A stretch of DNA of 64,000 nt from Syncephalis fuscata (taxonomy: Eukaryota; Zoopagomycota; Zoopagomycetes; Zoopagales; Piptocephalidaceae). The stretch spans positions 372,001 to 436,000 of the forward strand of contig JAHLTZ010000012.1 of the NCBI GenBank assembly GCA_025786725.1. The letters are read 5' to 3'. Each line of letters begins with the position of its first letter. Positions within the stretch are counted from its first letter, which is position 1. A program made the translations under genes and the position numbers. Under the pieces are notes generated by a model. That model was not told the origin of the DNA, ran no database searches, and was given only the letters and a program-made list of their open reading frames with translations. Shown here piece by piece: positions 11,735-60,276 of the stretch.

Positions 11735-13741
11735 ATAGAGCAATTAACATTGCTTGATAGCTTGTTTAAAATAAAAAATAAAAAATCATTTCTATTAATA
11801 TTTTTCGTTTTAAAATTGATAAATGAATATGTTGAAAAATATCATTTAGTACTGTTACCTTCTCTGCATATGCTTACGTGTATCATCTAAATGTAAATGA
11901 TATTACTACATTCCCAAATGTAAAACCAAAAGATGTACAAGTAAAAGCATCAAGTATATATTTAATTATTTAATACACACTGCCAATTATAATAGTTCAA
12001 CAGGTGCTATTATTTCTTATTAAAAAGCTTGAGTTGCTTTTGATTGATAAAAAGAATGTCGTTGCTACAAAATCAGTAATAAAATGAATTGGATTATAAA
12101 AAGCATATTTATTGTTAGTTGAGTAACAGTATTATGTATTTATAATATTGTTGAGTAATAAAAGCTAAAAATGCCTGATAAGAAAAAGCTAATTACAATA
12201 AATGCAACAATTTTAATTTAAACTTTGCTTATTTACGTAATTTAGTCAATTGTAGCAATATTAACAGCAATGTCAATTGTGTTTCATTTGTCAATAGACT
12301 TTTAATAATATACTGGTGGCAAATGCAACTAAAAAATACAAAACAAAAATATAATATGTAAAATTAGTAATAGTAGTAGTAAAACAGTAGTTAATGCTGT
12401 AATAAACATTTTTATTGAATAAATACAAGCTACTAATGAAACAGCTATTAAAGTAAATAATAAAATGTAATGCAAACAAAAATGATATAATTAGTAATTT
12501 TTTTAAAATATAAAATTGACCAACAGATAAAATTATACTGGTTTGTTTAAAGCGTTTCAGATATCAGATTTAGCAATTAAACAATTTTGAATTACATGAA
12601 AGTATTATTGCTTTGATTAACTTAAATCAGTTAGTTGGTGTATTAAGCAAGAGCGAAGATATGCAAAATAAAGCCGTCAACATGACATTTGTCGTTGATA
12701 AACTAGAACAATCTGTTTATAACATTCATTTTAAACATTGCAGTAGTTGCTCCAATATTCTAATTTAGAAAAGTCATGGGACATGGCAAAAGAGGCTTAT
12801 AAGGGCGCTGTGGTGGATTATTCAACCACTTGATTTGTATCAAATCTTATGATGTTTTTATTAACTAAATAAAAATAACTTTTTCAGCAATATTAAGCAC
12901 ACTGTCCTTTATTTAAGGTAATTTGGTAGTTAAATGGCTATAATACCCACACATTTAAACTAAATAGCTGTTTTATTGAAGATGAAACCGGGTGGTGAGT
13001 GTCATTAATTATTAAACTATTTATTATTATTATTGTACTATACATAGCTATTCTGTATACACATACTATATGTCCATCTATATTAATAATATTGTAAATT
13101 GCAAAAACTATATTAACAAAGCTAAAATTTTATTGCTAAATGTATTCTTTAGTAGATTTTGATTCATTTTGTTTATTAATCTTAGTCAATTGCATCAGTA
13201 TAGTTTCGCTATTACTATTCACGTATTTGATTTGTCTATTTATTTTGTTTTATAATATTCTATGCTTTGTTGCCATGTTTTATTAAATAAGCGTCTTTAT
13301 TCTAATTTCAGCATACTATTATTTGGCTATATGATAATGATAGCTTTGTTACTATCCATACCAATCTATGCCTATAGCTTACACGATATAATTATACACA
13401 TTTTGTTATTTTAACTATTTAATTAATAGTTAATCATTGAATGCAAATAGGACATGATTATAGATTTATCAATTTGATTGTATATAGTTAAGATGGAACC
13501 ATAGATTTATTACTATAAGCTTGCACAGTTGAATAGAAACAACTGATTGCAATCTTGTTGATAAAATAATGATCTCATTGATTAAAGACTGGATAAACCG
13601 GAGCATTGGCCAAAACTTGATATATAAATAGACTGGACGGCGTAGTTGTCAAATGATCTTGCTTTTCACCGAATATATACTATAGTGTATTGGAATAGTG
13701 GCTCAATTGCACTACCAATGCTGATGCCTTGAAACTGTCGA
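11735..13741. other. AT-rich spacer, part of the left inverted-duplication arm
   Basis: No gene found. From about 11905 onward the sequence matches, in reverse complement, the right arm down from about 56098. A block at about 12162-12475 recurs in direct orientation at about 19787-20080. It is the 3' flank of the micro-exon gene and probably contains its 3' untranslated region. Confidence 0.6.
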
Positions 13742-16700
13742 TTATGCTGTATTTACAAATAAAATATTATATGCCATTAATTAATTTATAAATCAGTTAA
13801 TATACAATACTACTTACGTCCTATTAATATTAAATTATGAATACACAAAATAAATAGCATGTAATTAGTGAGTAATCAATTTATATACAGTAAAAATTAC
13901 CGCCTATTAATATTGGGTAATTGATATCATCAGTAAATAGCATGCAATTAGTTCATTGCTAATTAATATACGATATTACTTACAGACTATTAATATTAAA
14001 TAATCGGTACAATCAGTAAATAGCATAGTTAATGTATAGTTAGTCAACATATGCTTTACTTACACCCTATTAATATTAAACAATTGGTGCAATTAGTAAA
14101 TAGTATAATTAATATATACTCAGTCGATATACAATAACACTTACTATCTATTAATATTAAATAATTGGTACAATAAGTAAATAGCAGTCAATGTATAGTC
14201 AATGTATATACAATACAACTTACAACCTATTAATATTAAATAATTGATAAAATCAGTAAATAGCATGGGATTAGTGGGTAATCAGGTAATATACAATATC
14301 GCTTACAAGCTATTAATATTAAATAATTGGTACAATCAGTAAATAGCAATTAATGTATAGTCAATTTATATAAAATATCGCTTACAAACTATTAATATTA
14401 AATAAGCAGTACAATTAGTAAATTGCATAGTCAATGTATAGTCAGTTAATATACGATACAACTTACTATCTATTAATATTAAATAATTAACACCATCAGT
14501 AAATAGCATGGTTAATGCATAGTCCGTTAATACACAATACAGCTTACTTCCTATTAATATTAAATAATTGGTACAATCAGTAAATATATAGTTAATGTAT
14601 AGCAAATTAATATACAATACAACTTACGACCTATTAATATTAAATAATTAATACAATCAGTAAATAGCATGTGATTAGTGAGTAGTTAATTAATATACAA
14701 TATCGCTTACATTCTATTAATATTAAATAATTAGTACAATCAGTAAATAGCATGGTTAATGTATAGTCAATTTATATACAATACAACTTACCCTCTATTT
14801 ATATTAAATAAGCAGTGCAATTAGTAAACTGCATAGTCAATGTATAGTTAATTAATATACAATAGCACTTACCCCCTATTATGTTAAGTTATTGATACAC
14901 ACAGCACATAGTATATGATTAGCCAATGTTCAATTAATATACAATATAACTTACAAGCTATTAATATTAAATAGTTGGTGTAACCAGTAAATAACATAGT
15001 TAATGCATAGTTAGTTAATATATAATACGTGGGGGATGTTGGTAGCTTAGTAGCTAAAGGCAGCGTCTTCCGAGCTGAAAACACCGAGTTTAAATCTCAG
15101 TTTAAATCAGTCCTTAAGTGGAAAAATCCCCAGTTTTCTCTAGTTAACAAATTGCAAACCAGAGCCCAATAAGTAGGTCCGAAAACAAGATCTTGGCCAG
15201 AATAGCCAAGGAAAAATCAATTGGAACCAACTTATATGGACCAGATTTGCGCAAAAACATGGCAGTCCACCCGTTAATTTAAAAAAGTTCAATATAGTGG
15301 GAAGCAGCGCAAATTCTTTAATTATGTGCAGCGGGGGCTCACAAGCTTTTCAAAATAAAAAATAAAAAATATACAATACTACTTACGCCCTATTAATATT
15401 AAATTATGAATACACAAAATAAATAGCATGCAATTAGCTTATAGTTAATTTATATACAATAAAAATTACCGCCTATTAATATTGAGCAATTGATATCAGC
15501 AGTAAATAACACGTGATTAATGTATAATTAGTCAATATACAATACCACTTACGATCTATTAATATTAGACAATCAGTGTAATCAGTAAATATATAGTTAA
15601 TATATACCAGTTAATATACAATGCCACTTACCCTCTATTAATATTAAACAATCAATGCAATCAGCAAATAGCATAGTTACTATATAGTTAATATACAATG
15701 CCACTTACGGTCTATTAATATTAAACAATTGGTGTAATCAGTAAATGGCGTGGTTAATGTGTAGTTAATTAATATACAATACAACTTACCCTCTATTAAT
15801 AGTAAACAATTGGTGTAATCATCAAATAGCATAGTTAATGTATATTTAATTAATATACAATACCACTTACTGCCTAGTAATATTAAATAATTGATACAAT
15901 CAGTAGATAGCAGTTAGTATATAATTAATCAATATACAATACAACTTACCCTCTATTCATATTAAATAATTAATACCATCAGTAAATAGCATAGTCAATC
16001 TATTCAATCAATAGACGATACCACTTACCCACTATTAATTTCAATAATTAATATCATCAGCAAATAACGTAATTATATATAGTCAGTTAATATACAATAC
16101 CACTTACTGCCTATTAATGTTAAAAAACCAGTGCAATCAATAAATAGTATGTGATTCGTGAGTAATCAATTAATATACAATATAACTTACATTCTATTAA
16201 TATTTGTTGATACACACAGTACATGGATATAATTAGTGAATAATTAGTTAATATACAATACAACTTACTGGCTATTGTATTGAATTGTTGATACACACAC
16301 AATACATGGATATAATTAGTGTGTAGTCAGTTAATACACAATGTTACTTGCCCACTATTTTATCAAATTATTGATACAAATAGTGTATGACACATGATTA
16401 ATTTATGTCAGTTGATGTACAACGCTACTTACTGCCTATTAGTATGAAGTTATTGATACACACAGCACATATATATGATACAATGTTCAATTAATATACA
16501 ATATAACTTACAAGCTATTAATATTAAATAGTTGGTGTAACCAGTAAATAACATAGTTAATGCATAGTTAGTTAATATATAATACGTGGGGGATGTTGGT
16601 AGCTTAGTAGCTAAAGGCAGCGTCTTCCGAGCTGAAAACACCGAGTTTAAATCTCAGTTTAAATCAGTCCTTAAGTGGAAAAATCCCCCAGTTTTCTCTA

Positions 16701-17493
16701 GTTAACAAATTGCAAACCAAAACCCAATAAGTAGGTTTGGAAACAAGACATTGGCCAGAATAGCCGAGGAAAACAATTGGGACTAACTTCAAAAAATAGT
16801 GCTGTGTAGCACCATTTAAAGGAAGATGGCCCCCGTGTGAAATCTATATAAACCGGATTTTATGCAAAAAAGTGGCAGTCCACCCGTTAATTTAAAAAAA
16901 TTCAATATAGTGGAAGCAGCGTAAACTCTTTAATTATGTGCAGCGGGGGCTCACAAGTTCTTCAAAATAAAAATAGAAATAATACACAATACGCCTTACC
17001 ATCTATGCCATTAAGTTGTCGATACACACAATACATGGTATAATTAATTTATGTCAGCAACATACAATACCACCTACTGCCTATTAGTATTAATTCATTG
17101 ATACACATAGTACATAACATATAATTAATCAATGTTCAATTAGTATACAATACAACTTGCATTCCTCTAATATTAAGTTATTTATGAATACAGTACATGA
17201 CATATAATTAGTGTATGCTCTATTAATATGCAATACAACTTACTAGCTATTGATATTAAGTTATTGATAAACACAACACATAACATGTAATTAGTGAGTA
17301 ATTAATATACAATATAACTTACGGCCTATTATAGTTATTATTTATAAATACTATTAGTAAGTATAATGCTATAGTATATTTATTAATATCACAACATACC
17401 ACGACGAACTAGAGTTGGTTTAGCATCCACCATGGCTGTAACGGCCGCAAGCGCAACGATAATGGCACAAACGACAGCAATAAAAAGCTTCAT
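13742..17493 (-). CDS. Secreted six-cysteine peptide encoded by 35 codon-sized micro-exons
   Basis: Exon 1 (17400-17493) encodes 31 residues: a signal peptide (MKLFIAVVCA start, cleavage likely after MVDA), a short pro-segment and a Kex2-like Arg-Arg, plus one nucleotide of the next codon. Thirty-five micro-exons follow, 34 of 3 nt and one of 6 nt. The terminal exon begins at 13746 and supplies two nucleotides and then TAA (13742-13744). Joined in the phase set by exon 1 they give 37 codons without a stop and with cysteines at positions 5, 8, 12, 26, 31 and 35, i.e. C-x2-C-x3-C-x13-C-x4-C-x3-C, in a predicted 68-residue precursor. Phase 2 would stop almost at once and phase 0 has no cysteine, so the phase dictated by exon 1 is also the cysteine-rich one. 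Introns are 71-80 nt except two that hold SINEs. The function is unknown; a secreted disulfide-rich effector, defence or signalling peptide is inference. No family was recognised. Confidence 0.82.
15029..15369. mobile_element. SINE-like insertion, copy 1
   Basis: A 341-bp insert in an intron of the micro-exon gene. The head resembles a tRNA-derived promoter: an A-box-like TAGCTTAGTAG and, about 35 bp on, a B-box-like GTTTAAATC. The tail is an A-rich AAAATAAAAAATAAAAAAT run. The flanking array sequence ATATAATAC / ATACAATAC may be an imperfect target-site duplication. The tRNA-like head does not fold into a convincing tRNA, so it is not called a tRNA gene. Confidence 0.7.
16586..16982. mobile_element. 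SINE-like insertion, copy 2
   Basis: Second copy of the same element (397 bp), with about 55 bp extra internally. It begins at the same point of the repeat unit as copy 1, and about 90 bp of array sequence before it is nearly identical to that before copy 1. The SINE was therefore probably copied with a block of array units rather than inserted twice. Confidence 0.7.
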
Positions 17494-17633
17494 GGTGATA
17501 TTGATTTGTTAAGACAAACAAATAAAAAGATAGTAGAGTGTGGTTAGTATAAAGTAAAGAGTAAAGAGTATTTAGCAGAAAGTAGAGTGCTGATGGTGAT
17601 ATCGCAGTTGGTGGTTGTGTATATTCTGTGGGC

Positions 17634-17642
17634 TATTTAAAC
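17634..17642 (-). promoter_or_regulatory. Possible TATA-like box of the micro-exon gene
   Basis: GTTTAAATA on the minus strand about 140 nt before the start codon. The same GTAAGTTTAAATAG-like context precedes the second locus at 52953-52962. Conserved position supports a promoter element, but it is only a short AT-rich motif. Confidence 0.35.
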
Positions 17643-20580
17643 TTATGGTTACGCCGAGATATTAATATACTGTAGTATACAAGATATATTATTGATGTGT
17701 AATATGAACCAATAAAACAATCCAAATAGTGGTCTGAAGTGCGTATATATTAATAGATTTATGGCGTGACAGTATGTTTCCCAGTCTTGATTTTGATTTG
17801 CTCGGCATTTACACAAATGACACGGTAATTTTAATGAACAATACATATGCGATAGATACATGTACATTATCTGTACTTTCTATTACACGGTCTAACTATT
17901 TGGTAAAAACAGGTATATTGTTTGGTTTTGTAAAAACGATAATGATGCCTTTGCTGTCACTTCCACCAAATGACTCGGGCCCCAATATCTGCATACATAC
18001 AAATAGCGTACAACATTGACGCAAAAAACAAGTTCAATATATCAAAATGGTATTTTATACAAGCTTTTACTGCCATACATAAGCCAGTTGTGATTTTTTA
18101 GATTATAAAGTGTGTTGATTGGTACATGAGTGCATTTCATTTGACACTATTCCCATTATTATGGGGTAATCATTGCTTTGAATTCACAAATGCATCGCAT
18201 CCAGACATATCATGCTACATGTAGTGCAACCACTATCATTCAAATAGCGGCTAATCCAATTATCTAAAGTCGTCTGTACAATAAGTACCGTTTGTAGCAT
18301 GATGCATCGCGGCATTTTGAGCAATGGAACATTCCAACAAGCCATTTTTATCAATTTTCAGCTGTGAACTAATCGCATTGTCTAAATTCTACATAATGTA
18401 ACATGCAGACACTAGACTAGACACAATAGAAAGTTCTGCTCAAATACCAGCAATTTCGAGTGCATAATGTCAATGGATTGTACATAAACCGGTAATCGTC
18501 CAAGGCTTAAGTACTGCTTACATTTCTGAAACCAATCGTGACAAGTCAAGCAAGATGAAATACAGAAGAGCAAATCAAAGCAGAAACCAATGGAAAAACA
18601 ATTGGCAGCTCAAAGGTTTACTGGTTTAACCTATAGCAAATCATTACAGCTATGCTATGCTGAACTGCGTTTATCAAAAGTTGGTTGTTGCTGATGCAGT
18701 TAGAACAGCAGCGTTAAACTAAGCTAACGCACAGAAAACAGAGAGTTGTAGATAAAATTGAATTAACAAGTTTAGTAATTAAATTATTTATTATTGTCAC
18801 TATACTTTATAATTCTGACTGTTTGTACGGATAATATTTACAATCACAATCTAACTTTTTATATACTTGCATGTACATGACCACCATCTAAGCCAACTAT
18901 TATAAGTTTTAATTTAATTACTTATTAAAGCAGCTAATATTATACATTATTACAATAATATAAAGACAAATTGTTTTTGTTTATTGATCATTAATAAAAG
19001 TTGTATAGTTATATATTAAAATAAAATAAAACATTGGATTGAGCGCGTAATATTTACATGATCAAATCATTTTACTTTGGCTCTCACATTTTTTGTTTAC
19101 TCCTTTCACTCCCGTTTCCTATCGCTATCTTATTGTTTTACTCAATAATATATTATACAATAATGCCAAATATAACAATATAAATAACATGTGTATTCGA
19201 ACATTAATAAAAAACATTAATAAAGAACATTATTCAATTCCTAGTCTTTATTTCTCTTATTTTACATCAACACCTGTTCAAGTAATTTCAACGGCATGCT
19301 GTATTCTCTAGTTACAACTGTCGCCACAAGATCTTCCTAATGAAAACACTCAACCCAGCATTATTGTATATGGTGGAGGCCATTTGCTTTATTAATGGTT
19401 GGCAAATAAACTGCACCTACCAAGTTGATACCAAGAATGCTCAAGACAATAGTGAACATCAGAAATGCTGGTCGTTCTACCTTTTTTAGCACCATAAGCG
19501 AGTATTTTACATTACAAATATGCCCAAAATGCAATATTAGAATATTAGAAAATAAAAGAGACCATTCAGACGCAAAAAAACTACACTGTACATAGTAACA
19601 ATAACAACTAAGGGATAACATGAAATTGCAATCATATGGCTTCTATTAATATTCAATCAATTTTTCTACACTTGGCCACAACAATAATAATAATTGGCCT
19701 CGTGAATTAAAAAATAGTTAAATAAAAACATCATAACTATGTTTTTGTACATAACAGTACGACTTGAATTGGGAAATTTTAAAAAAAGCTAAAAATGCCT
19801 GATAAGAAAAAGCCAATTACAATAAATGCAACGAATTTTAATCTAAAACTGCTTATTTAAATAATTTAGCTAATCGTAGCAATATCAACAGCAATACCAA
19901 TCGTGCTTTGTTTGTTAAAAGACTTTTAATAATATCCATGTGGCAAATACAACTTAAAAATACAATACAAAAATATAATATGTAAGGATTAGAACTAATA
20001 GTATTGAACTAGTGGTTAATGTTGAAACAAATGTTTTTATTAAACAAATACAAACTACTAATGAAATAGCTATTAGAAAAAGAAAAGAAAATACCATTAA
20101 AGAGTATTTAATCAGTGGTAAACGTCATTACAAGAAAACTAAGTGTGGGCAAGCAAAAAAATAATTTTATAATAAATAAATTTTATAAATTTAAAACAGT
20201 ATTTTTTTGTAAATAAAATCAAAAAACGACGTATTTTGGTTAATTCACCATTGTTAATACTTTTGTAGTGCGGTTCTGTCGGCACCTAAGCCTGACACCT
20301 GGGCCTCTGGTATATCACCCATAACGGTATGAGTTCCGTGGACGTTTGCTTTTATTGCTTGATTTGATGAATAATACCCTTCTATTCAGAAGGACAAGTA
20401 CAATAAATATTTTTTTACAGATACTTGGACCTGTCTAATTAGAATACTACATAATTCTTTAGCACAATAAAAATAAAAATTAATTCAAAAACTTTCTTTT
20501 TATTCTAAAGTGTGTTTTGCATCCTCTTATTTATGCATCAACGATACAGCTAACACTTCACGGCAATGCCGAGCTACATG
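17643..20580. other. Gene-free AT-rich stretch with repeat copies
   Basis: No gene supported. The part to about 19690 belongs to the left duplication arm. About 19620-19780 is a decayed copy of the interspersed element also seen at 37235-38133. About 19787-20080 repeats 12162-12475. About 20260-20345 is a short GC-richer patch I cannot explain. Confidence 0.5.
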
Positions 20581-20623: not shown

Positions 20624-21481
20624 TTAGTCAATTTTCTTTCCACACTTTGGTAGTTTTGTTACACGAATCCAATCGATATCCATCGACATTTCCTTGACAT
20701 TCAATGGTGCCTTTGTACCAAATCCTGGCTCAATGGCAAGGTTAATAATAAGATAGAATGGCTTGTTGAATGGCCATTCCTTTGGATCACTAGTTGTTGG
20801 TGGTGAATAGCTGCCGTAGATCTTGCCATCGAGGAGAAAATCAAATCGATTTTCAGTCCAAACAACCGAATAAGTGTGCCATTGACTGGGGTCGTTTCCT
20901 TCGGCCCAGAAAGACTTGGCTGTGGCACCATGGAACTTGGCAAAATGAAGCCCTCCTGGTGTACGAACTCGATGGGGTTCAAAATTCTTGTTCCAAAGCG
21001 ATTGGTACTCACCAATATCCACTTCGCCACTTGCTGGCCAAATGCCATAGGCATTATCTTGTGGCAACATCCATATGGCGGGGAATGCACCATCGGTGAT
21101 GGGCATGCGGGCACGGACATCGACACGGCCATAAGTAAAGGTGAACTTGCCACGGGTAGTAATCTTGCTTGATGCCCATCGATCACCCTGAGTGCGCTTT
21201 GCTGTAATGCGTAGGTATCTTCCTCTGTAGCCAGTCATCAAACTAGCCTTATCGTATATTTGATGCTCGTTGTTGCCCCATCCACAAATGCCAACGTCGC
21301 AGCCATCGCCCAAGTCATAGCCCCAAGCAGTGGTGTTTAGTGTTTTGGCATTGAAGCTGTCTTCAAATATAACGGCTGGCTTGGGCTTACAGTAATTGCT
21401 TGATATTGATGGCATATTTTCAGGATCGGCCATTGCCGGTAGAATAACGGCGCTGACGATGCATAGATATTTCCAGACCAT
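20624..21481 (-). CDS. Secreted GH16-family glycoside hydrolase
   Basis: Single exon, 285 residues, with an N-terminal signal peptide (MVWKYLCIVSAVILPAMA). The body is a GH16 beta-jelly-roll: an FEDSFN start, the catalytic stretch SGEVDIGEY (the E-x-D-x-x-E signature carrying nucleophile and acid/base) near residue 155, an HTYSVVWTENRFDFLLDG strand pair and an FYLIINLAIEPGFG strand. GH16 enzymes cleave beta-1,3/1,4-glucans and related wall polysaccharides. The protein is extracellular by prediction. Length is normal for an unmodified GH16 catalytic domain, with no extra binding module. It lies on the same strand as the LPMO 2.5 kb away, and both could act on fungal or host cell walls. Confidence 0.92.
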   Translation of the reverse strand: MVWKYLCIVSAVILPAMADPENMPSISSNYCKPKPAVIFEDSFNAKTLNTTAWGYDLGDGCDVGICGWGNNEHQIYDKASLMTGYRGRYLRITAKRTQGDRWASSKITTRGKFTFTYGRVDVRARMPITDGAFPAIWMLPQDNAYGIWPASGEVDIGEYQSLWNKNFEPHRVRTPGGLHFAKFHGATAKSFWAEGNDPSQWHTYSVVWTENRFDFLLDGKIYGSYSPPTTSDPKEWPFNKPFYLIINLAIEPGFGTKAPLNVKEMSMDIDWIRVTKLPKCGKKID

Positions 21482-21559
21482 GGCTGTCTAATAAAATGCT
21501 GTTGAAAATAAAATAAAAACGCTTATGAATAATCAATAACTAAATAATCAGAAAGTGAC

Positions 21560-23954: not shown

Positions 23955-24964
23955 TCATTCATCTTCGTAAACCTCCTGGCATTTCATAACCTTCTTTCTT
24001 TTCTTCGACTTTCCTTTGTCTGATTTTTCTTCCTTACCAGAAGACTTGGAAGAGTCGGAACCAGTGTTTTAGTAGGTGGAACTTCAGAAGAATCACCTTT
24101 CACATATGGATGGTTTGCTTCACTGTTGCCTTTAACACCAATGCCTGGATTGTCATTTGTTGCAATAAATACTGTTCTAACACTGTTGTCCTCACGGGCA
24201 GCATCATCGTTGTGGAAGCGATTCCACGGAAGCTTGGCTGGTGGCATATTGACGGGCTTTCTGCCATTACCTCCTTCACCAACTACTGTACCTTCACGAG
24301 TAGGCTGGGCTCCAGACGGAATAGTAACAATCTTGCGATTGAAAAAGTGTTCTTTACCGTCTTTCTTAGCATCAGTATTGGCCCATTCAGGAATTCTTGG
24401 CCTGCCAGGCAACTGACCAACGAACAATTCGGGACCGGTAAGACTGCCTGTGTTACTGCCACCGTTGATTTCAATGTCAACACAGTTCATATAGTATTCA
24501 CGGTTGCCTTCGGCGTTCATCCAAGTCCAGGCAAATATTGCTTCTCCGTTCTTGGCCCCCTTAGGCAATGGAATATTGTAGACCCATGGGGCTTTGTCCA
24601 AAAAGCATAAGTCAATGATAGTTTTAAGCACCACCCAGTTTTGACCATTGTCATAGGAAATTGCAAACTGACAATGTCCACCTCGGTGCGAGTTACCGGT
24701 CTTAAACATTACAGGGAACGACTTGCCAGCCGTATACTTGGCCATAACCGGACCTTTTCTTTGATGGCGGCACGGAAACTTGCCAAGGAATCTGTGGTCG
24801 TTCAATGGCGCATTAAGATCGTAGTCGGCAATTCCAAAGTATTGTTTTTGTATACGTGCGTCACCGCGAGGGATGGGAGCAAATAATCTCATGTGACCAG
24901 CCACGTTTTGTAGTGCACTAAGACCAAGCATGGCCATAGTGGCAATTTTCGTTAGATTCATCAT
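23955..24964 (-). CDS. Secreted AA11-like lytic polysaccharide monooxygenase
   Basis: The signal peptide (MMNLTKIATMAMLGLSALQNVAG) is followed directly by HMRLFAPIPRG. Cleavage would expose the N-terminal histidine of the copper histidine brace. AA11-like signatures follow: FPCRH, the second brace histidine in SHRGGHCQF, and the AWTWMNAEGNREYYMNCVDIEI block near residues 150-175. AA11 enzymes oxidatively cleave chitin. As read, the frame runs to 23984 with an unlikely basic tail. Adding one A to the AAAA run near 24070 would instead give a Ser/Lys/Asp-rich tail ending at TGA 23955-23957. That tail resembles the low-complexity C-termini of such enzymes, so I suspect a one-base deletion or sequencing slip. 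Confidence 0.87.
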
Positions 24965-26867
24965 GATTCGTTATCGGATAGTGTGTTTGGACGTAAAAAA
25001 ATAGTGGTTAATTGATTTAACAAGGCACCAGGCCGTTGTGTAGAAGAACGTTAGAAAGTGGGACAAAGAGCTGGAGGAACGTTACAAGGATATAGAATCC
25101 TAGTTTGCATTTGCACAAGCGATGCCTTTTATGAGAATTCGATCGATAAAGCTTTATTATTGGTGTTACATAGCTGGTATTGTAGTTGTATCAAAAACTA
25201 GTAATTTAAGGCCTATCAATACTACAGAAACAATAGCATTCAATGGTTTCTATCCTATCATTTAGCAAGTGTTTTCAATTGCAAATTAGACATTGATACG
25301 TATTCGAGAGTGCTGGCAGAAATGTTTGATATGTATGGAGTGCATTATCACAACATGTGCAACTCCGTTATTTTTTTTGAAATACTGATTGCCATTTAAT
25401 ACATGGTTTCAAATGGCAAGTAAGCGCAACATAATATTGTTCATATTACTTTATTGCGTCCTTACCAGTTATCACTGAACTTCATTAATCCGACACGAAA
25501 CGTTTTTTCATGTACCCCGATCACACATCTGCTCAAACTTCCAACGCCCCACTCCATAATCTAGTGTCTTAACTATTAATTATATTGTTTTCTGTTCTTT
25601 TGATAATCTTGTTTAATAAATACAACAATGTGAATCAGTTAAAACAGAGAGATCAAATAGGCTATTAAATTGTAAATAAATATTTAATGCTTAGATTGTG
25701 TAAAATCTTCAATGCTATGCATTCAAAATCCTTCAAAATAGGAGTAAAACAATGTTATACTAGGACAATCGGTACCTTACCAATAAATGCTCATACCGGC
25801 TACTGGGTGTTACACAAAAGGTTTTGGCATGAAATAAATATTGAGCAACAATGTGTCATATAATAATAATGTATATAATTTGTTATAATGTGTAAGAACA
25901 TATCTTATAATTAATTACACGTTATGGACATGTTTAAAACCATTAACAATAATATCATGTACAATATTGACTATGCTGTGATGTAATTGTGAATACTATA
26001 TAGCTCAACAACGTCCGGCTAATTGCTATTGACGCAGTATATTAATAGACATGAAGTGCAATAAAAAAATAAACAGTTTTAAGGTTTAAATAGAATAATC
26101 TAACGTCAAATCGTTGAGTGAAATATGCGATTGTATTGGATTAATTTGCAACAGTAATTACAAAATGGTACATGATAAAGTTTATTAGTATTAGGTTCTT
26201 TTTGAATATAAGCGGGTTAATTTCGTTTTGTTTTTACTTACTTGATGGAATTGATAATAAAGTGTAAAAAATAAAGTTACGCTTAATTTCTCATGATAAG
26301 CCGCTGCGTTTTTATGTAATTTAGTCTATAGGTTATTTGATATATTGTTATTATCCTATTTAGCATTATAAATTGCTAATTTTCACATTCAGTAATTCGT
26401 AAATAAATACTTTTGCATAAATATCAGGTGCTATCTTCAAATAATACGAAGATAGTTATATAAATGTTTTTTTACAAGTGAGTATCGGTGACTGTTAGTT
26501 CGATAGTTTGGTATGTAATTTAAGAGCTAAAAATATATAAAAAATAAGCAAATTGGCAAGATAAAAGCCAAGGCAAGTTAAGTTGTTCAAACAGGAAAAA
26601 TATGTATAGCATCAGGCCTATGCCTTTCGCTACAATGTGACCATTGATGACACATCTTATTAGCAGCCCATATCTACAATTACTTGTAAATAGATATATA
26701 TATTTTATTCTTACTCAATAAAAAGCAATAATCTATCTATTTTTACTGTATCTTTTTACTCATACCTATTTGCAGTCTTTATTGCGATAGCAAGTGTTCG
26801 TATTTTCACTGCATTGCACAAACTGTTCTCAACATACCAATTTTAATATTGCTATTTCTATTTAAAC
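24965..26867. other. AT-rich spacer with F-box-family flank remnants
   Basis: No gene supported. Around 25665-25870 are sequences resembling the 3' flanks of the F-box-like copies (compare about 29095-29230), so an older family member may have decayed here. Confidence 0.4.
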
Positions 26868-53146: not shown

Positions 53147-54331
53147 ATGAAGCTTTCTATTGCTGTCGTTTACACCATCGCTGTGGCTTTGATAGCCACT
53201 ACAGCCATGGTGGATGCTAAACCAATCATGGTTCGTCGTAGTATGTTTCAATGACAATAGATATATTATATTATTATGCTTACTAACAAAATTTTTAACT
53301 TAATATTAATAGGTTGTAAGTTGTATTATATATTGACTGACTATGCACTAATTATGTGCCATGTATTATGCGTATAAACAACTTAATATTAATAGTGTGT
53401 AAGTTGTACTATATATTGACTGACTATGCACTAATTATGTACCATGTACTATGCATATAAACAACTTAATATTAACAGGGAGTAAGTTATATTATATATT
53501 GACTGACTATGCACTAATTATGTACCATGTATTATACGTATAAATAACTTAATATTAATAGATTGTAAGTTGTATTATATATTGACCGACTATGCACTGA
53601 CTATGTATTATACATATAAATAATTCAATATTAACAGGCAGTAAGTTCTATTATATATCAACCGACTATGCACTAATTATGTACCATGTATTATGTGTAT
53701 AAATAACCTAATATTAATAGCCTGTAAGTTGTATTATATACTAATGACTATCACTAATTATATACCATGTATTGTGCGTATAAACAACTTAATATTGGCA
53801 GTCTGTAAGTTTTATTATATATCAACCGACTATGCACTAATTATGTACCATGTATTATGTGTATAAACAACTTAATATTAATAGGGGGTAAATTATATTA
53901 TATATTGACTGGCTATGCACTAATTATTATTATATACTATGCGTATAAATAATTCAATATTAACAGGCAGTAAGTTGTATTATATATAACTGACTATGCA
54001 CTAATTATGTATATATACTATGCGTATAAATAACCTAATATTAATAGTGTAAGTTGTATTATATATTGATAATTATGCACTAATTATTTACCATGTATTG
54101 TGCGTATAAATAACTTAATATTAACAGGTCGTAAGTAGTATTATACGTTGACTGACCACATATTAATTATGCTATTTACTGATTGTACCGATTATTTAAT
54201 ATCAATATATTGATGGCTTATAAATTAATTATATGGCATATAATATCTTTATTTGTAAATACAGAATAATCAATGGTTTCAAGACATCAGCATTGGTAGT
54301 GCAATCAAGCCACTATTCCAATACACTTTAG
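53147..54331 (+). CDS. Second secreted micro-exon gene, short paralogue
   Basis: Exon 1 (53147-53240) is 94 nt, like its paralogue, and encodes 31 residues with 23 identical: signal peptide, MVDAKP and Arg-Arg. Micro-exons lie at 53313, 53396, 53479, 53562, 53638, 53721, 53802, 53885, 53967 and 54128, all 3 nt. A single nucleotide remains at 54048 between AG and GTAAGT. Introns are 72-80 nt, the last 134 nt. The terminal exon starts at 54265. Skipping the 1-nt unit gives 11 residues after Arg-Arg with one cysteine and a stop at 54267-54269. Including it gives about 20 more codons and a stop at TAG 54329-54331, a position conserved in the other locus. The mature part is too short for the six-cysteine pattern, so it may be contracted, diverged or decaying. 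Confidence 0.62.
53241..54264 (+). repeat. Tandem codon-exon array, second locus
   Basis: Eleven spacers between 71-80-nt intron units. Acceptors read AATATTAATAG or ATTAACAG; donors are GTAAGT except GTAAAT at 53888. Triplets differ from unit to unit, while the unit body (ATTGACTGACTATGCACTAA) is strongly conserved. Confidence 0.88.
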
Positions 54332-56548
54332 GTATATATTCGGTGAAAAGCAAGACCATTTGGCAACTACGCTGTCCAGTCTATTTATATATCAAGTTTT
54401 GGCCAATGCTCCGGTTTATCCAGTCTTTAATCAATGAGATCATTATTTTATCAACAAGATTGCAATCAGTTGTTTCTATTCAACTGTGCAAGCTTATAGT
54501 AATAAACCTATGGTTCCATCTTAACTATATACAATCAAATTGCTAAATCTATAATCATGTCCTATTTGCATTCAATTATTAATCAAATAATTAAATTAAT
54601 AACAAAATGTGTATGATCATATCGTGTAAGCTATAGGCATAGATTGGTATGGATAGTAACAAAGCTATTATTATCATATAGCCAAATAATAGTATGCTGA
54701 AATTAGAATAAATATGTTTTTTAATAAAACATGACAACAAAGCATAGAATATTATAAAACAAAATAAATAGACAAATCAAATACGTGAATAGTAATAGCG
54801 AAACTATACTGATGCAATTGACTAAAAGTAATGAACAAAATGAATCAAAATCTACTAAAGAATACATTTAGCAATAAAATTTTAGCGTTTGTTAATATAG
54901 TTTTTGCAATTTACAATATTATTAATATAGATGGACATATAGTATGTGTATAGAGAATAGACATGTACCGTATAATAATAATAAATAGTTTAATAATCAA
55001 TGACACTCACCACCCAGTTTCATCTTCAATAAAACAGCTATTAGTTTAAATGTGTGGGTATTATAGCCATTTAACTACCAAATTACTTAAATAAAGGACA
55101 GTGTGCTTAATATTGCTGAAAAAGTTATTTTTATTTAGTTAATAAAAACATCATAAGATTTGATACAAATCAAGTGGTTGAATAATCCGCCACAGCACCT
55201 TATAAGCCTCTTTCGCCATGTCCCATGACTTTTCTAAATTAGAATATTGGAGCAACTACTGCAATGTTTAAAATGAATGTTATAAGCAGATTGTTCTAGT
55301 TTATCAACGACAAATGTCATGTTGACGGCTTTATTTTGCATATCTTCGCTCTTGCTTAATACACCAACTAACTGATTTGAGTTAATCAAAGCAATAACAC
55401 TTTCATGTAATTCAAAATTGTTTAATTGCTAAATCTGATACTGAAACGCTTTAAACAAACCAGTATAATTTTATCTGTTGGTCAATTTTATATTTTAAAA
55501 AAATTATTAATTATATCATTTTTGTTTGCATTACATTTTATTATTTACTTTAATAGCTGTTTCATTAGTAGCTTGTATTTATTCAATAAAATTTATTACA
55601 GCATTAACTACTGTTTACTACTACTATTGCTAATTTACATATTATATTTTTGTTTTGTATTTTTAGTTGCATTTGCCACCAGTATATTATTAAAAGTCTA
55701 TTGGCAAATGAAACACAATTGACATTGCTGTTGGTATTGCTACAATTGACTAAATTACGTAAATAAGCAAAGTTTAAATTAAAATTGTTGCATTTATTGT
55801 AATTAGCTTTTTCTTATCAGGCATTTTTAGCTCTTATTACTCAACAATATTATAAATACATAATACTGTTACTCAACTAACAATAAATATGCTTTTTATA
55901 GTCCAATTCATTTTATTACTGATTTTGTAGCAACGACATTCTTTTTATCAATCAAAAGCAATTCAAGCTTTTTAATAAGAAATAATAGCGCCTGTTGAGC
56001 TATTATAATTGGCAGTGTGTATTAAATAATTAAATATATACTTGATGCTTTTACTTGTACATTTTTTGGTTTTACATTTGGGAATGTAGTAGTATAATTT
56101 GTAATATAATTAGTAATAAATTTGATAATACCATTGTTACGGTTCTAGTTTAGAAATCATAATCTAGATGAGCAAGCAACATCTTATCCTGGAGTTATCT
56201 TATAACATTAATTTCTGATGTATATTAACGCTTACCTTTACGCTTAGAATATATGTATTGGTCGTATCGATTTGCTAATAGAACTTGGATGCTTTTTAGT
56301 ATTTCATCATTAACGCAGCATGCTAGTTCATGTGACTGCTCATATGCTCACAATTAGCAAGTAGCTATTCGTCATATCTTCTTAATAGACATTTGTTACT
56401 AGTAATCGGTACTAATATCCGATAAGTATATTAGTTCTGTGATCAATCACATGCAACTTTAGCTGGTTATCCAATCACATGGTATATCTCTTAATCACCC
56501 TTTTACAATATTCTGTCCGGAATATTAAAATAGTAACAACGGCATTGT
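54332..56548. other. 3' flank of the second micro-exon gene
   Basis: Inverted match of 11.9-13.7 kb up to about 56098, then about 450 bp of unmatched AT-rich sequence. No gene supported; the open frames at 54343-54546 and 55426-55722 lie in repeat sequence. Confidence 0.5.
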
Positions 56549-56932
56549 GATTCGATTGTCATTGTAGGTTATCCGATACTCACTCGAATGTTACTATTTT
56601 TGGCAAGTGCCAATGGATCGGAGGTAGAAAAATAGCCGACTACATGCCGAAGCAACTACAAATTAGATTAGCCAAATAAAATGACAAATTATAGACCTGT
56701 GATAGCAAAATAGCAATAAACTGCTATTCATTTAAAGGACTGATTATATAGTGATTGCTTGTTAATTATACTATTTGAATTTTGTAAACGTCTCACCATG
56801 GAACCTGCAGTATCTATTCATTCACAAAATATACATATCGAAGAAGCATCAACCAAGCAGAAGGATGTCGAACCAATAATTGCCAATAATGAAGTCAAGA
56901 CTTCGGCATTAGTGCTGCAATATTTGTTAAAT
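56549..56932. repeat. 384-bp direct repeat, downstream copy
   Basis: Partner of 50066-50449. This copy continues into the intact SNG1-like gene, which marks it as the original context. Confidence 0.92.
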
Positions 56933-58240
56933 CGACGTAATATTATATTGCTATTTGGTCTTGGTATAACCGTTTACATATACGCCTGGCTTTATATTGG
57001 AGGACTGTGGAATCCTATTAGCCATATAAGAAATGTCGAGATTGCATTACTTAATAGTGATAAGGGGTTTAATTTTACTAATGTACCGGATACTACCCGT
57101 GAATTAATACTTCAATCAACGGGGGGCCGTTCATTAGGCGAAGTCATTGGCAAAGCATTAACGAACGTACCAGATGCTAATTTTGACTGGAAATCGCAAG
57201 AATTCCAAATGACGCGCGATCAATTGCTTAAATCGATTGACGATGGCAATTTCGTAGCCGGCATCTATATCCCCACAACGTTTAGTCAGGACTTTTTATC
57301 GGCCTTTTCTGCGCCAAATACCTCGCAAAGTTACCAGAAAATGCAGATTGAGTATATCCACGACCAGGGTAGAAATTACGGCGCCGATAGCATTATCAGT
57401 CTTATCATTCAACGATTAATTACTGGTGTTAGTAGCGGGTTTGAAAAGCAACTTTTATCAAGTCCTAAAGCAGCTCAAATCGTCTTGGCAGCCCAGCCAA
57501 CTTTTTGGGAAACGCCGATTCAAACTATATCGACTACGCTGCATCCCGTTCATCGTTATGGACAAGGCTTTGCCTCATACGCATCAGTTGTCGTAATAAT
57601 TATTGGCTGCATCGGTGTTGTAACAGTTATAAATCGTTACGTCGATACAATGCCAGTCGTGCGTTTATTAAATCACGTTAATCAGAACGATGTTAGAACA
57701 ACTAAACCGACATTTAGCGTAGCACGCATTGTTATCATTAAACTAGGCATTATGATAGGTGGATTATTTATTTGCTCAATCTTTATATGGTCAGTACCGC
57801 TTTCGTTAGATGGTCATCAATTCGATGGTGCCTCGGCAGCAGCAGCTTTATTTTTTATTTTTTTGGCAGGTTTATCGGTACTTGGTTTCATCTCGTTATT
57901 ATGTGATTTAATTGGAGTAGAAATGTTTTCTGGTCCCGCGTCGACTCTGCTTATTTTATTTCTCACAACAGGCAGTGCCATTATGGATGACGAACTATCA
58001 GGAAGTATTTTTTACATGGGGCGCGCTTTTCCATTTTATTACGCCGTACGAGGATTGCGATTCATCTATTTTGGATCACTTCATAATAAGATGTGGATCA
58101 ACTGTGTCGTGCTTGCCGCATGGGCAATTGTAGCGCTAACTGCGACGGTGTTTGTAAATGCACGCCGCCTTTACCGGCAACGCCAAATCATATCTACTGG
58201 CGATAGTGGTCGAGCAACGGAGATGGCGGCACATCATTAA
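56798..58240 (+). CDS. SNG1/DUF3533-family membrane protein, copy A
   Basis: Single exon, 480 residues from ATG 56798 (the upstream frame lacks an ATG). It has an N-terminal membrane span (IILLFGLGITVYIYAWLYIG) and then an extracytoplasmic domain with GLWNPISHIRNVEIALLNSDKG, as in the SNG1/YhgE-Pip family. The C-terminal half holds about five spans (for example IIIGCIGVVTVINRY and FFIFLAGLSVLGFISLLCDLIG). Yeast SNG1 gives resistance to nitrosoguanidine and influences membrane lipid asymmetry. The exact activity is not settled and is inferred here by family. Its 5' end is duplicated 6.5 kb upstream. Confidence 0.85.
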   Translation: MEPAVSIHSQNIHIEEASTKQKDVEPIIANNEVKTSALVLQYLLNRRNIILLFGLGITVYIYAWLYIGGLWNPISHIRNVEIALLNSDKGFNFTNVPDTTRELILQSTGGRSLGEVIGKALTNVPDANFDWKSQEFQMTRDQLLKSIDDGNFVAGIYIPTTFSQDFLSAFSAPNTSQSYQKMQIEYIHDQGRNYGADSIISLIIQRLITGVSSGFEKQLLSSPKAAQIVLAAQPTFWETPIQTISTTLHPVHRYGQGFASYASVVVIIIGCIGVVTVINRYVDTMPVVRLLNHVNQNDVRTTKPTFSVARIVIIKLGIMIGGLFICSIFIWSVPLSLDGHQFDGASAAAALFFIFLAGLSVLGFISLLCDLIGVEMFSGPASTLLILFLTTGSAIMDDELSGSIFYMGRAFPFYYAVRGLRFIYFGSLHNKMWINCVVLAAWAIVALTATVFVNARRLYRQRQIISTGDSGRATEMAAHH

Positions 58241-58714
58241 GCTTTTCCGTATGCTATGCCATTTCTGATCTAACTATTTTTATGATTAACAGTGCAGTTT
58301 TAGTGAATACAGTTCATGTTATACTGATGGTCGGAGTAGTGTTCCCGTTTCGGCTGTACATGCAATGTCCCCGAAATTTATCCGTACCCCCATTGGGTTG
58401 ACCAGTCACTAAATTCATGATTCGACCATCTCATTTGTCCACCAACGTGTTTTGCAATCCTGTTATTATTTATTCATTGACGCAAATGCCGTATTATTTT
58501 TTTGAAAATACACTGAACGGATAAGAACATTTGCGTCAAGTCCTTAGCTTGGCTTGCAACGGCATGGGATAATTTACTATTATATTTTAACCGATTAAAA
58601 CCATGCTTCATTTTTATTGTTTATAAAAAGACTGATGGTTTTGATTATTTCTCGTTTACATCATTAGTTTCAGTTATAGGTAGTTTGTGTTGTTTATTTT
58701 CGTTTATACACATC

Positions 58715-60276
58715 ATGGCAAATCCATCAGCATCACCAAGCTGGCATATGCCACGCAGTATATTTCCTAGTTTGATTAACAAGAAAATCATCATTGCGCT
58801 GATATTTGTTTCATTTATTCCATTTATTTACATGTGGCTGTACATGGGCGGCATTTGGAACCCAATGAAATATATGAACAATGTTGAAGTTGCTTTTATC
58901 AACGCCGATGCTGGATTCGACTTTACCAATGTGCCCGCACCTTTGGCAGAAGCAATTAAATCGGCCACCAATGGGCAATCGATGGGTGCAACAGTTGAAG
59001 CACAAATTGTAGGCCAAAAACAAATCAAATTTGACTGGAAAATACTAGATGGATCCGAGTACACCTATGAAGCATTACGCGACGCAATCGACTATGGTAC
59101 CTACCAATTCGGTATTTATATTCCCAAAAACTTTAGCGCCAACTACCTTAGCGCCTTCTCTACCAATAGCACCGCAGAGTACCGCCCAATGGTCATTCAA
59201 TATGCTTATGATCAAGGCCGTGACTACTCAACTGCTTCTATGATTACTGCGCCTATATCGCGTCTAGTAGTAGCGGTCAGTCAAGGCATGGCGCGCAAAC
59301 TGCTTACTGGACCAAATGCCGTTAACAGTCGAAATGCCATGGTTCCTGCCTTCTGGATCGAGCCAATTGCCCTTGCTACAGATGTCTTGCACCCAATTAA
59401 CAGATTCGGCCAAGGTACTGCTTCTTACATGTCCATCATGGTGATGTACATCGCTTCAATTGCTATTGTTACCGTTACACGTCGTTTCGTTGTTGGGGAC
59501 CCGGTTGTTTTTGGCTATGTTAATCAGACCGGTGATCTGCCATTGAATCAAGTAGAGACACGCGATGTTGGCACTAGTCCACAAGATAATCATGTTTACA
59601 ACGTGGACACGCCAGCAGATTCCGATATCGATTTAAGCGATGATGAAAGCGGCACAAATACACCAAAAGAGGCGAATACCGACGAAAAGCCGCAGCCAAT
59701 CTTTTCAATTTTCCGTATTGTTCTTGCTAAATACGTTATTATGCTAGGTGCACTCTTCTGTGTGCATTGTTAGTATGGTCGGTACCCATGTCACTTGAAG
59801 GAGCTCAATTCGAAGGCGCACCATCAGTAGCAGCACTGTTTTATCTTCTTTTTATCGGATTCTGCTTTATCAATCTTCTTAGTCTTTTCTGCAATCTATT
59901 CGGCCTTGATGGATTCTCGCTGCCTGCATCGCTATTTATGATTTTCATGATGAGCACCGGCAGTGCTATGCTTTCTGACGTTTTATCACCAAGATTTTTC
60001 CGCATTGGCCGAGGTCTTCCCTTCCACTATGGTGTGCAAGGCCTTCGATTCATTTTCTTTGGCTCGCTTAAAAGCCAAATGGGTCTGTGCTGTGGTGTGA
60101 TAATCGCTTGGACTGTAGCCACGCTCATTCCAGGAGTGTGGGCTGCTGTTCGTGCCGAACGAATTCGTCGAGGCGAACACATTAAGCGCGTAACTAAACG
60201 CCATCGCTTGCAAATGCGTCGACTTCGTCGCAAACAAACTGCAGAAATTGTAGAGCAAGCTAACAAAGCTGTATAA
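58715..60276 (+). CDS. SNG1/DUF3533-family membrane protein, copy B, with a frame break
   Basis: Tandem paralogue of copy A, 475 bp downstream on the same strand. It has the same architecture: LIFVSFIPFIYMWLYMGGIW, then NPMKYMNNVEVAFINADAG, an acidic linker near residue 300, C-terminal spans and a strongly basic tail (RLQMRRLRRK). The first frame ends at TAG 59771-59773 in a membrane segment and the remainder is open from 59767 to 60276. One added base there would restore an alignment of equal length to copy A. I take it as a single-base loss, real or an assembly error. Confidence 0.78.

Follow-up and report, generated by a model that had tools for sequence, protein, structure and literature searches.

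In a 64,000-nucleotide (nt) stretch of the genome of the mycoparasite Syncephalis fuscata (Zoopagales; contig JAHLTZ010000012.1, positions 372,001 to 436,000; hereafter the window), the minus strand between positions 13742 and 17493 very probably carries a protein-coding gene, one of a large S. fuscata family, whose mature product, a small secreted disulfide-rich peptide, would be encoded one codon per exon. The case is built on exon and intron signals, a constant exon length of 3 nt, frame selection at consecutive exon junctions, a common cysteine scaffold, and intron-free paralogues. From these features of the sequence we conclude that the predicted codon-sized exons are, or recently were, consecutively spliced and translated. 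The window gene is laid out as follows, with micro-exons numbered 5′ to 3′.

17494 to 18493, minus strand: 5′ flank and promoter region, with upstream likeness to the intron-free paralogues
17400 to 17493, minus strand: exon 1, 94 nt (ATG, hydrophobic leader, VDAKPTLVRR, and one extra base, giving phase 1; donor GTATGT)
13818 to 17325, minus strand: array of 35 micro-exons, from a gene model with branch site, first AG, and donor in which exon sizes of 1 to 45 nt were permitted
17325-17323, 17246-17244, 17166-17161 (6 nt), 17080-17078, 17002-17000, 16514-16512, 16435-16433, 16354-16352, 16271-16269, minus strand: micro-exons 1 to 9
16193-16191, 16110-16108, 16031-16029, 15952-15950, 15873-15871, 15792-15790, 15711-15709, 15634-15632, 15555-15553, minus strand: micro-exons 10 to 18
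15472-15470, 15389-15387, 14957-14955, 14875-14873, 14794-14792, 14713-14711, 14630-14628, 14550-14548, 14469-14467, minus strand: micro-exons 19 to 27
14388-14386, 14309-14307, 14226-14224, 14147-14145, 14066-14064, 13986-13984, 13903-13901, 13820-13818, minus strand: micro-exons 28 to 35
17161 to 17166, minus strand: the sole 6-nt micro-exon, its acceptor AG 3 nt nearer the branch site
16586 to 16983, plus strand: element resembling a short interspersed nuclear element (SINE), in the 485-nt intron
15029 to 15370, plus strand: SINE-like element in the 429-nt intron
13390 to 13746 (3′ limit approximate), minus strand: terminal exon (two bases that finish a codon, TAA at 13744-13742, and the 3′ untranslated region [UTR])

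Exon 1 codes for MKLFIAVVCAIIVALAAVTAMVDAKPTLVRR plus one base, and the joined frame reads GPKECNACMAKCMEGKDQDRGPWEECRNISCYRFCGP followed by a stop, that is, 37 residues with the pattern C-x2-C-x3-C-x13-C-x4-C-x3-C. In the family copies read, MKL, a hydrophobic stretch, and VDA(K/N)P are visible by eye and form a putative signal peptide. A first-pass annotation of this DNA had proposed a secreted cysteine-rich peptide made from 34 spacers of 3 nt and one of 6 nt, with a 37-codon open frame, six cysteines at spacings of 2, 3, 13, 4, and 3, and a stop at once in the terminal exon. The second of our two gene models returned the same exons, and the joined frame and its cysteine spacing were recovered unchanged; the terminal exon opens with two bases that finish a codon and continues with TAA. 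Micro-exons are thus 3 nt long in 34/35 cases and 6 nt in 1/35, the 6-nt form being found in other array genes as well. Two of its statements needed correction. The introns are 71 to 80 nt long in 34 of 36 cases, the remaining two (429 and 485 nt) each containing a SINE-like insert, and the donors, while GTAAGT-like, are not uniform, with GTAAGT itself in 288 of the 340 three-nt exons of 15 nonredundant arrays. The two long introns, the membership in a large family, and a second, frame-broken array (53147 to 54300) were absent from that annotation. The two SINE-like elements have the same orientation and are 93% identical over 338 aligned bases. By eye, both contain tRNA-like A and B boxes, and similar elements are present in several other loci.

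The gene models did not presuppose an exon length of 3 nt and used no reading-frame information. A first scan, pairing each acceptor with the closest good donor no more than 200 nt away, gave 336 of 382 pairs spaced 3 nt. The first gene model, a chain model permitting exons of 1 to 30 nt and including other array subtypes, gave 403 exons, of which 378 were 3 nt and 11 were 6 nt long. The second (exons of 1 to 45 nt; branch site, then first AG) was used for genes of the type called W1; it ran past the array in other subtypes and disagrees with the first at some weak units. In the window gene, the first model differs at the 6-nt exon and at the unit at 17000-17002, where the second agrees with the first-pass annotation. 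A set of 288 strict 3-nt units served to train the weight matrices, which are thereby biased toward similar sites. Across the genome, with TTAATATTAATAG and GTAAGT fixed and the spacing left free from 0 to 30 nt, 950 of 956 exact pairs were spaced 3 nt; four others were spaced 0 to 2 nt and two 4 to 30 nt. The reversed pattern, used as a control, gave 0 matches in all three spacing searches of the genome. With one mismatch allowed there were 1798 units, against 0 for the reversed control.

Conservation within the window gene follows the same boundaries. The triplet columns hold 0.02 to 0.18 bits of information, compared with 2.0 bits for AG and 1.3 to 2.0 bits for the donor, and no column examined (from 20 positions before to 12 after the exon) is less conserved than the three of the exon. 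Pairwise identity, with gaps ignored, is 80% among the introns of ordinary length and 26% among the triplets. Because the triplet columns vary while AG, donor, and introns are conserved, and because of the genome-wide spacing counts, the array layout is not chance. Triplets ending in AG, one of 12 dinucleotides looked at, occurred twice against 11.1 expected (P = 3e-4); a NAG triplet would set a competing acceptor directly behind the first AG. By eye, an ordinary intron of the CLPTM1 gene in the window likewise has GTAAGT, a CTAAT-type branch site, and AATAG.

We then asked the arrays for signs of coding. A codon was taken as the last base of one micro-exon plus the first two of the next, with the addition of the inner codon of 6-nt exons. 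The set of 20 array genes keeps broken arrays, and micro-exons not 3 or 6 nt long were skipped over. Left out were L039, L040, L043, L041, L042, and L044 (other subtypes, in which the model overran), L046 (no array), L047 (contig end), L055, L056, and L058 (single exon), L031 (exon 1 unlocated), and loci duplicating another's first 400 nt (e.g., L033). A nonredundant set of 15 genes was obtained by removing the near copies L051, C1A, L036, L037, and L048. In the 20 genes, there was 1 stop in 490 in-phase codons, whereas shuffling the exons within genes gave 21.9 (minimum of 10 in 4000 trials); cysteine codons numbered 80 versus 38.7 (maximum of 55). The 15 nonredundant genes gave 1 stop in 367 codons versus 18.4 and 59 cysteines versus 29.8. 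An earlier permutation of stops and cysteines on eight genes chosen as intact was set aside as circular for stops. Nor do we claim positive selection from the comparison of paralogues: triplets outdiverge introns in 6 of 7 pairs (odds ratios of 3.4 to 6.2, and 0.7 in the seventh pair, L045/L051), but unit gain and loss makes global alignments mosaic, and nonorthologous pairing alone could give such values.

The same test bears on a different use of the array, in which the introns are real but the micro-exons are used combinatorially, so that skipping would yield many in-frame peptides per gene. The 3-nt exons are all symmetric, the introns are near-identical, and the donors are alike, so skipping would preserve the frame. 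In the 15 genes, however, stops were depleted between immediate neighbors (1/336 versus 18.2 expected) and not when one exon (22/323 versus 17.7) or two exons (28/308 versus 16.9) were skipped; at longer skips they were close to expectation. The cysteine excess likewise lies mainly at consecutive junctions, apart from a slight one at the fourth-next exon (34 versus 25.7; P = 0.02). We therefore regard combinatorial use as unlikely. Since the stop depletion is confined to neighboring exons, selection appears to have protected the product with every micro-exon in order, and what selection acts on is, by this measure, the full inclusion of the micro-exons in order.

The predicted product recurs through a gene family. 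The exon 1 peptide matched at 150 places in the genome (those scored, of 306 candidates), although some of these are probably one gene on duplicate contigs (C84 and C231 are identical in score and first 400 nt). Twenty further loci were taken by rank for a survey. Ten were W1-type arrays (L047 being cut by the contig end) and six were arrays of other subtypes; L046 was almost without an array, and L055, L056, and L058 were intron-free. The largest array, in L050, has up to 46 micro-exons. Among 13 arrays with a located terminal exon, 8 have an intact frame, and 5 of these 8 carry the scaffold C-x2-C-x(2-4)-C-x(5-18)-C-x(3-6)-C-x3-C, a pattern that no more than 1 in 20000 shuffles reproduced for any one of the five. 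The window itself holds a second family member:

53147 to 53240, plus strand: exon 1 (MKLSIAVVYTIAVALIATTAMVDAKPIMVRR)
53313 to 54130, plus strand: array of 11 units, ten of them 3 nt long and one, at 54048, of 1 nt, which breaks the frame; last intron of 134 nt
54265 to 54700 (end approximate), plus strand: terminal exon and 3′ UTR

Array subtypes other than W1 seem to show that the codon-per-exon layout is not bound to one peptide type. In L039, L040, and L043 (sense positions ∼390 to 1810 from the ATG), the family leader is present, and the predicted peptides are glycine-rich and cysteine-free up to the first stop, with details that vary between the two gene models. A third subtype comprises L041, L042, and L044. 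We also observed leader matches within open frames of 110 to 144 codons, with long open frames at C278:50865-53335 and C222:1963-4494, and the S. fuscata proteins P0003 and P0005 have the family leader with a longer, different mature part. The family leader may thus also be joined to unrelated mature domains.

The intron-free paralogues provide a second line of evidence. L055/L056 and L058 have the family leader followed by a single uninterrupted frame with six cysteines, and the deposited protein P0006 (locus L059) is of the same kind and contiguous in the genome. P0007 looks similar to P0006, judged from the protein alone. Array peptides align to these paralogues along the six-cysteine scaffold. 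The likeness extends to the flanks: the 5′ flank of the window gene is 78 to 80% identical in long stretches to L055, L056, and L058 and 86% identical over 157 bp to L059, and its 3′ DNA is 80 to 87% identical to all four over 317 to 803 bp. When these four loci are compared with the arrays in general, upstream stretches of up to 1 kb match at 73 to 85% (for L059, about 110 to 155 bp, the whole length available there, at 86 to 93%) and downstream stretches of mostly 250 to 800 bp match at 78 to 92%, the downstream match starting no more than 16 bases into the terminal exon. Because leader, scaffold, and flanks are common to both, the array and intron-free loci are, as far as sequence can tell, the same gene in an intron-bearing and an intron-lacking form.

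Part of the coding DNA is shared as well. Spliced L057 (first gene model) and the contiguous DNA of P0006 are identical at 23 of 26 nt (P = 0.001 by exon-order shuffle), a match that covers seven whole micro-exons and two bases of the eighth. The summed nucleotide score of 10 arrays was 276 versus 189.4 for P0006 (standard deviation, 10.8; maximum of 229 in 1000), 218 versus 175.9 for L058 (maximum of 215), and 252 versus 195.4 for L055 (maximum of 238); the ten arrays are related, and these are not ten independent tests. A single step from array to intron-free gene, by recombination with complementary DNA, would be simpler than dozens of exact intron gains. If this direction is true, the intron-free genes are fossils of fully spliced messages. 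With the gene family, the avoidance of stops at consecutive junctions only, the six-cysteine scaffold, and the leader, flanks, scaffold, and partial coding DNA held in common with intron-free paralogues, the central claim of the first-pass annotation, a putatively secreted cysteine-rich peptide built from codon-sized exons, is supported, with the signal peptide recognized by eye.

Several observations weigh against a coding interpretation of the arrays. Of the 13 arrays with a located terminal exon, 5 (W2, L048, L053, C1A, and C1B) contain a unit of a length not divisible by 3, as does the partial array L035h; there is a stop in the partial array L030h, and one in C1A when it is read in the running frame. 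Weak units in L050, L052, L057, W1, and others are modeled differently by the two gene models. The full scaffold is missing from three of the eight intact arrays (L049, L050, and L057), and L045 and L051, two of the five that bear it, are near copies. Moreover, the nucleotide match to the intron-free genes is significant singly for only some pairs, and outside the cysteines the array peptides resemble L058 and L055 weakly (P = 0.03 to 0.76 by a shuffle with cysteines fixed). Given the frame-breaking units and stops, some family members have decayed or are incorrectly modeled.

The arrays might have been under selection in the recent past and now be silent or expressed only as noncoding RNA. 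An array product is absent from all ten public protein models examined; P0008 and P0009 resemble reads into an intron (by eye, from the protein alone). Set against this are the intact frames of 8 of 13 complete arrays and the conserved flanks, and we consider silence of the arrays quite improbable. That those ten models include no array product further suggests that an entire effector-like family can escape annotation. Alternatively, the single-exon genes could be the working copies and the arrays their counterparts ruined by intron invasion, no longer making a peptide. Single-exon paralogues with the same flanks and the frame-breaking units of several arrays would fit this, but 1 stop in 490 in-phase codons is not expected of ruined genes, and the splice sites are near consensus although the introns are only ∼80% alike; ruin of the arrays is very improbable. 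That the locus is a noncoding minisatellite, whose 3-nt gaps are chance variable positions, is barely credible: it is a tandem array of ∼80-bp units and is called as such by Tandem Repeats Finder, yet its least conserved columns sit exactly between the AG acceptor and GTAAGT donor, the spacing is 3 nt in 950/956 pairs, the stop and cysteine statistics hinge on consecutive joining, and the six-cysteine scaffold is also present in intron-free paralogues.

For consecutive splicing of codon-sized exons, we infer the following course. The spliceosome would take out each 71- to 80-nt intron by intron definition, guided by the near-invariant GTAAGT donor, a TTAAT-like putative branch site ∼10 nt upstream of the 3′ end, and the first AG that follows. 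Introns would be removed one after another, each recognized by itself, because 3 nt leave no room for two complexes at the same time or for definition across the exon. Every step would lengthen the message by three bases, placed immediately ahead of the next donor, until the whole set of exons has been linked in order, in phase 1, into the leader, VDAKPxLVRR, and the six-cysteine domain. A near-perfect donor (288/340 GTAAGT) fits a site that has no conserved exon bases to rely on. Exons of 6 nt would be ordinary units in which the first AG lies three bases nearer the branch site. The units may have arisen through tandem duplication of an exon-plus-intron module; a duplicated unit adds one codon, so the frame would never be disturbed.

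The products are likely to be secreted disulfide-rich peptides acting on the host or on rival fungi, a role proposed from the leader, the cysteine content, the family size, and the lifestyle alone; the genus Syncephalis is mycoparasitic (PMC6784888). It is conceivable, though we hold it to be somewhat less probable than its opposite, that the arrays constitute an evolved diversification system in which near-identical introns serve as recombination handles that reshuffle single codons in frame and in which the intron-free members were written back from spliced RNA. Single codons would then be gained, lost, and reshuffled within and between arrays, amounting to exon shuffling at one-amino-acid resolution. 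As one hint, the exon lists of the paralogue arrays L035/L036 and L045/L048, compared by eye, differ by whole one-codon units. As another, triplets retain little likeness (33% identity, 85 pairs) even beside introns 90 to 95% alike and keep more of it (55%, 28 pairs) only where introns are >95% alike.

A search with an intron-free family member found five proteins at an E value of ≤0.01, all from S. fuscata. A family profile run against 5.8 billion proteins, its reach restricted to relatives that share exact words, found ten at an E value of ≤1, again all from S. fuscata; at this sensitivity, the family therefore has no known relative elsewhere. The scorpion short toxin family PF00451 was rejected, its best score of 21.7 bits (E = 2.5e-4), reached by one of eight family members, being below the gathering score of 25.1. 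A search of PDB sequences with the family profile gave 0 matches. AlphaFold modeling of the intron-free P0006 with P0007 reached a mean predicted local distance difference test (pLDDT) score of 56 and a predicted template modeling (pTM) score of 0.30, too poor a model for a fold search. Rfam and tRNA scans of the window gave 0 matches. Elsewhere in the window, a GH16 glycosyl hydrolase open reading frame (ORF) and an adjacent ORF with a leader followed by His are present (20624 to 21487 and 23984 to 24970, both on the minus strand); the latter, which has no Pfam match, presumably resembles a lytic polysaccharide monooxygenase. Downstream of the second array, a tandem pair of adjoining DUF3533/ABC-2-type membrane protein genes occupies 56744 to 60276 (plus strand).

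If the proposed structure is true, there is a natural class of genes with single-codon internal exons, dozens in series, and, if confirmed by RNA, this would be the most finely chopped gene architecture that we could trace. Such genes would be a stringent natural test of the spliceosome on minimal exons, for which exon definition is impossible and the strength of the 5′ site must come from the intron alone. They would also bear on the origin and loss of intron arrays and on the ways in which parasites diversify secreted peptides.

Among known systems, the micro-exon genes (MEGs) of schistosomes are the closest in kind. The window gene has the general makeup of a MEG, with a leader exon and then many exons far below 30 nt, in multiples of three. 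The schistosome genes had already been put forward by the first-pass annotation as a comparison with mostly longer exons. According to PMC10526429, MEG exons of Schistosoma mansoni measure 6 to 81 bp (3 to 81 bp is also stated), mostly 15 bp, with 10 to 20 per gene, introns are 0.1 to 5 kb long, and alternative splicing is known. As in S. mansoni, a parasite has small, in S. fuscata putatively secreted, proteins, many tiny exons mostly in multiples of three, multigene families, and a gene structure that is hard on automatic annotation (PMC10526429). Unlike in S. mansoni, internal exons in S. fuscata are nearly all 3 nt, introns are near-identical, and full inclusion is selected, so that the window gene, with 3-nt exons and 34/36 introns of 71 to 80 nt, falls outside the schistosome exon and intron sizes. 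The profile search described above, which scanned the protein collection as a whole rather than taking MEG proteins singly, revealed no homology to them. Among the matches listed in the open-access PMC literature searched, no gene had 3-nt exons in series, though a prior description is possible.

Aphid bicycle genes have longer exons and encode larger proteins, and we know of no series of codon-sized exons in them. The likeness is that they, too, are fast-evolving secreted effector candidates recognizable from gene structure (PMC9168663, PMC13041983), their proteins having saposin-like folds (PMC13041983). Smaller exons exist singly. A 1-nt exon of Arabidopsis APC11 is constitutively spliced, for which intron definition and stepwise removal were proposed (PMC4674806), and Fusarium CYP621A has a 1-nt exon as well (PMC12940212). 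Both are cases of one tiny exon in an otherwise ordinary gene, whereas the S. fuscata arrays have dozens in series; our proposal of stepwise splicing follows the argument of the APC11 authors for a 1-nt exon (PMC4674806). In recursive splicing, the ratchet points consist of an acceptor juxtaposed to a donor and are used step by step (PMC8605326). The S. fuscata units are not juxtaposed in this manner, as exact matches number 4 at 0 to 2 nt versus 950 at 3 nt. Ratchet points leave nothing in the mRNA, whereas each step along an S. fuscata array would leave one codon.

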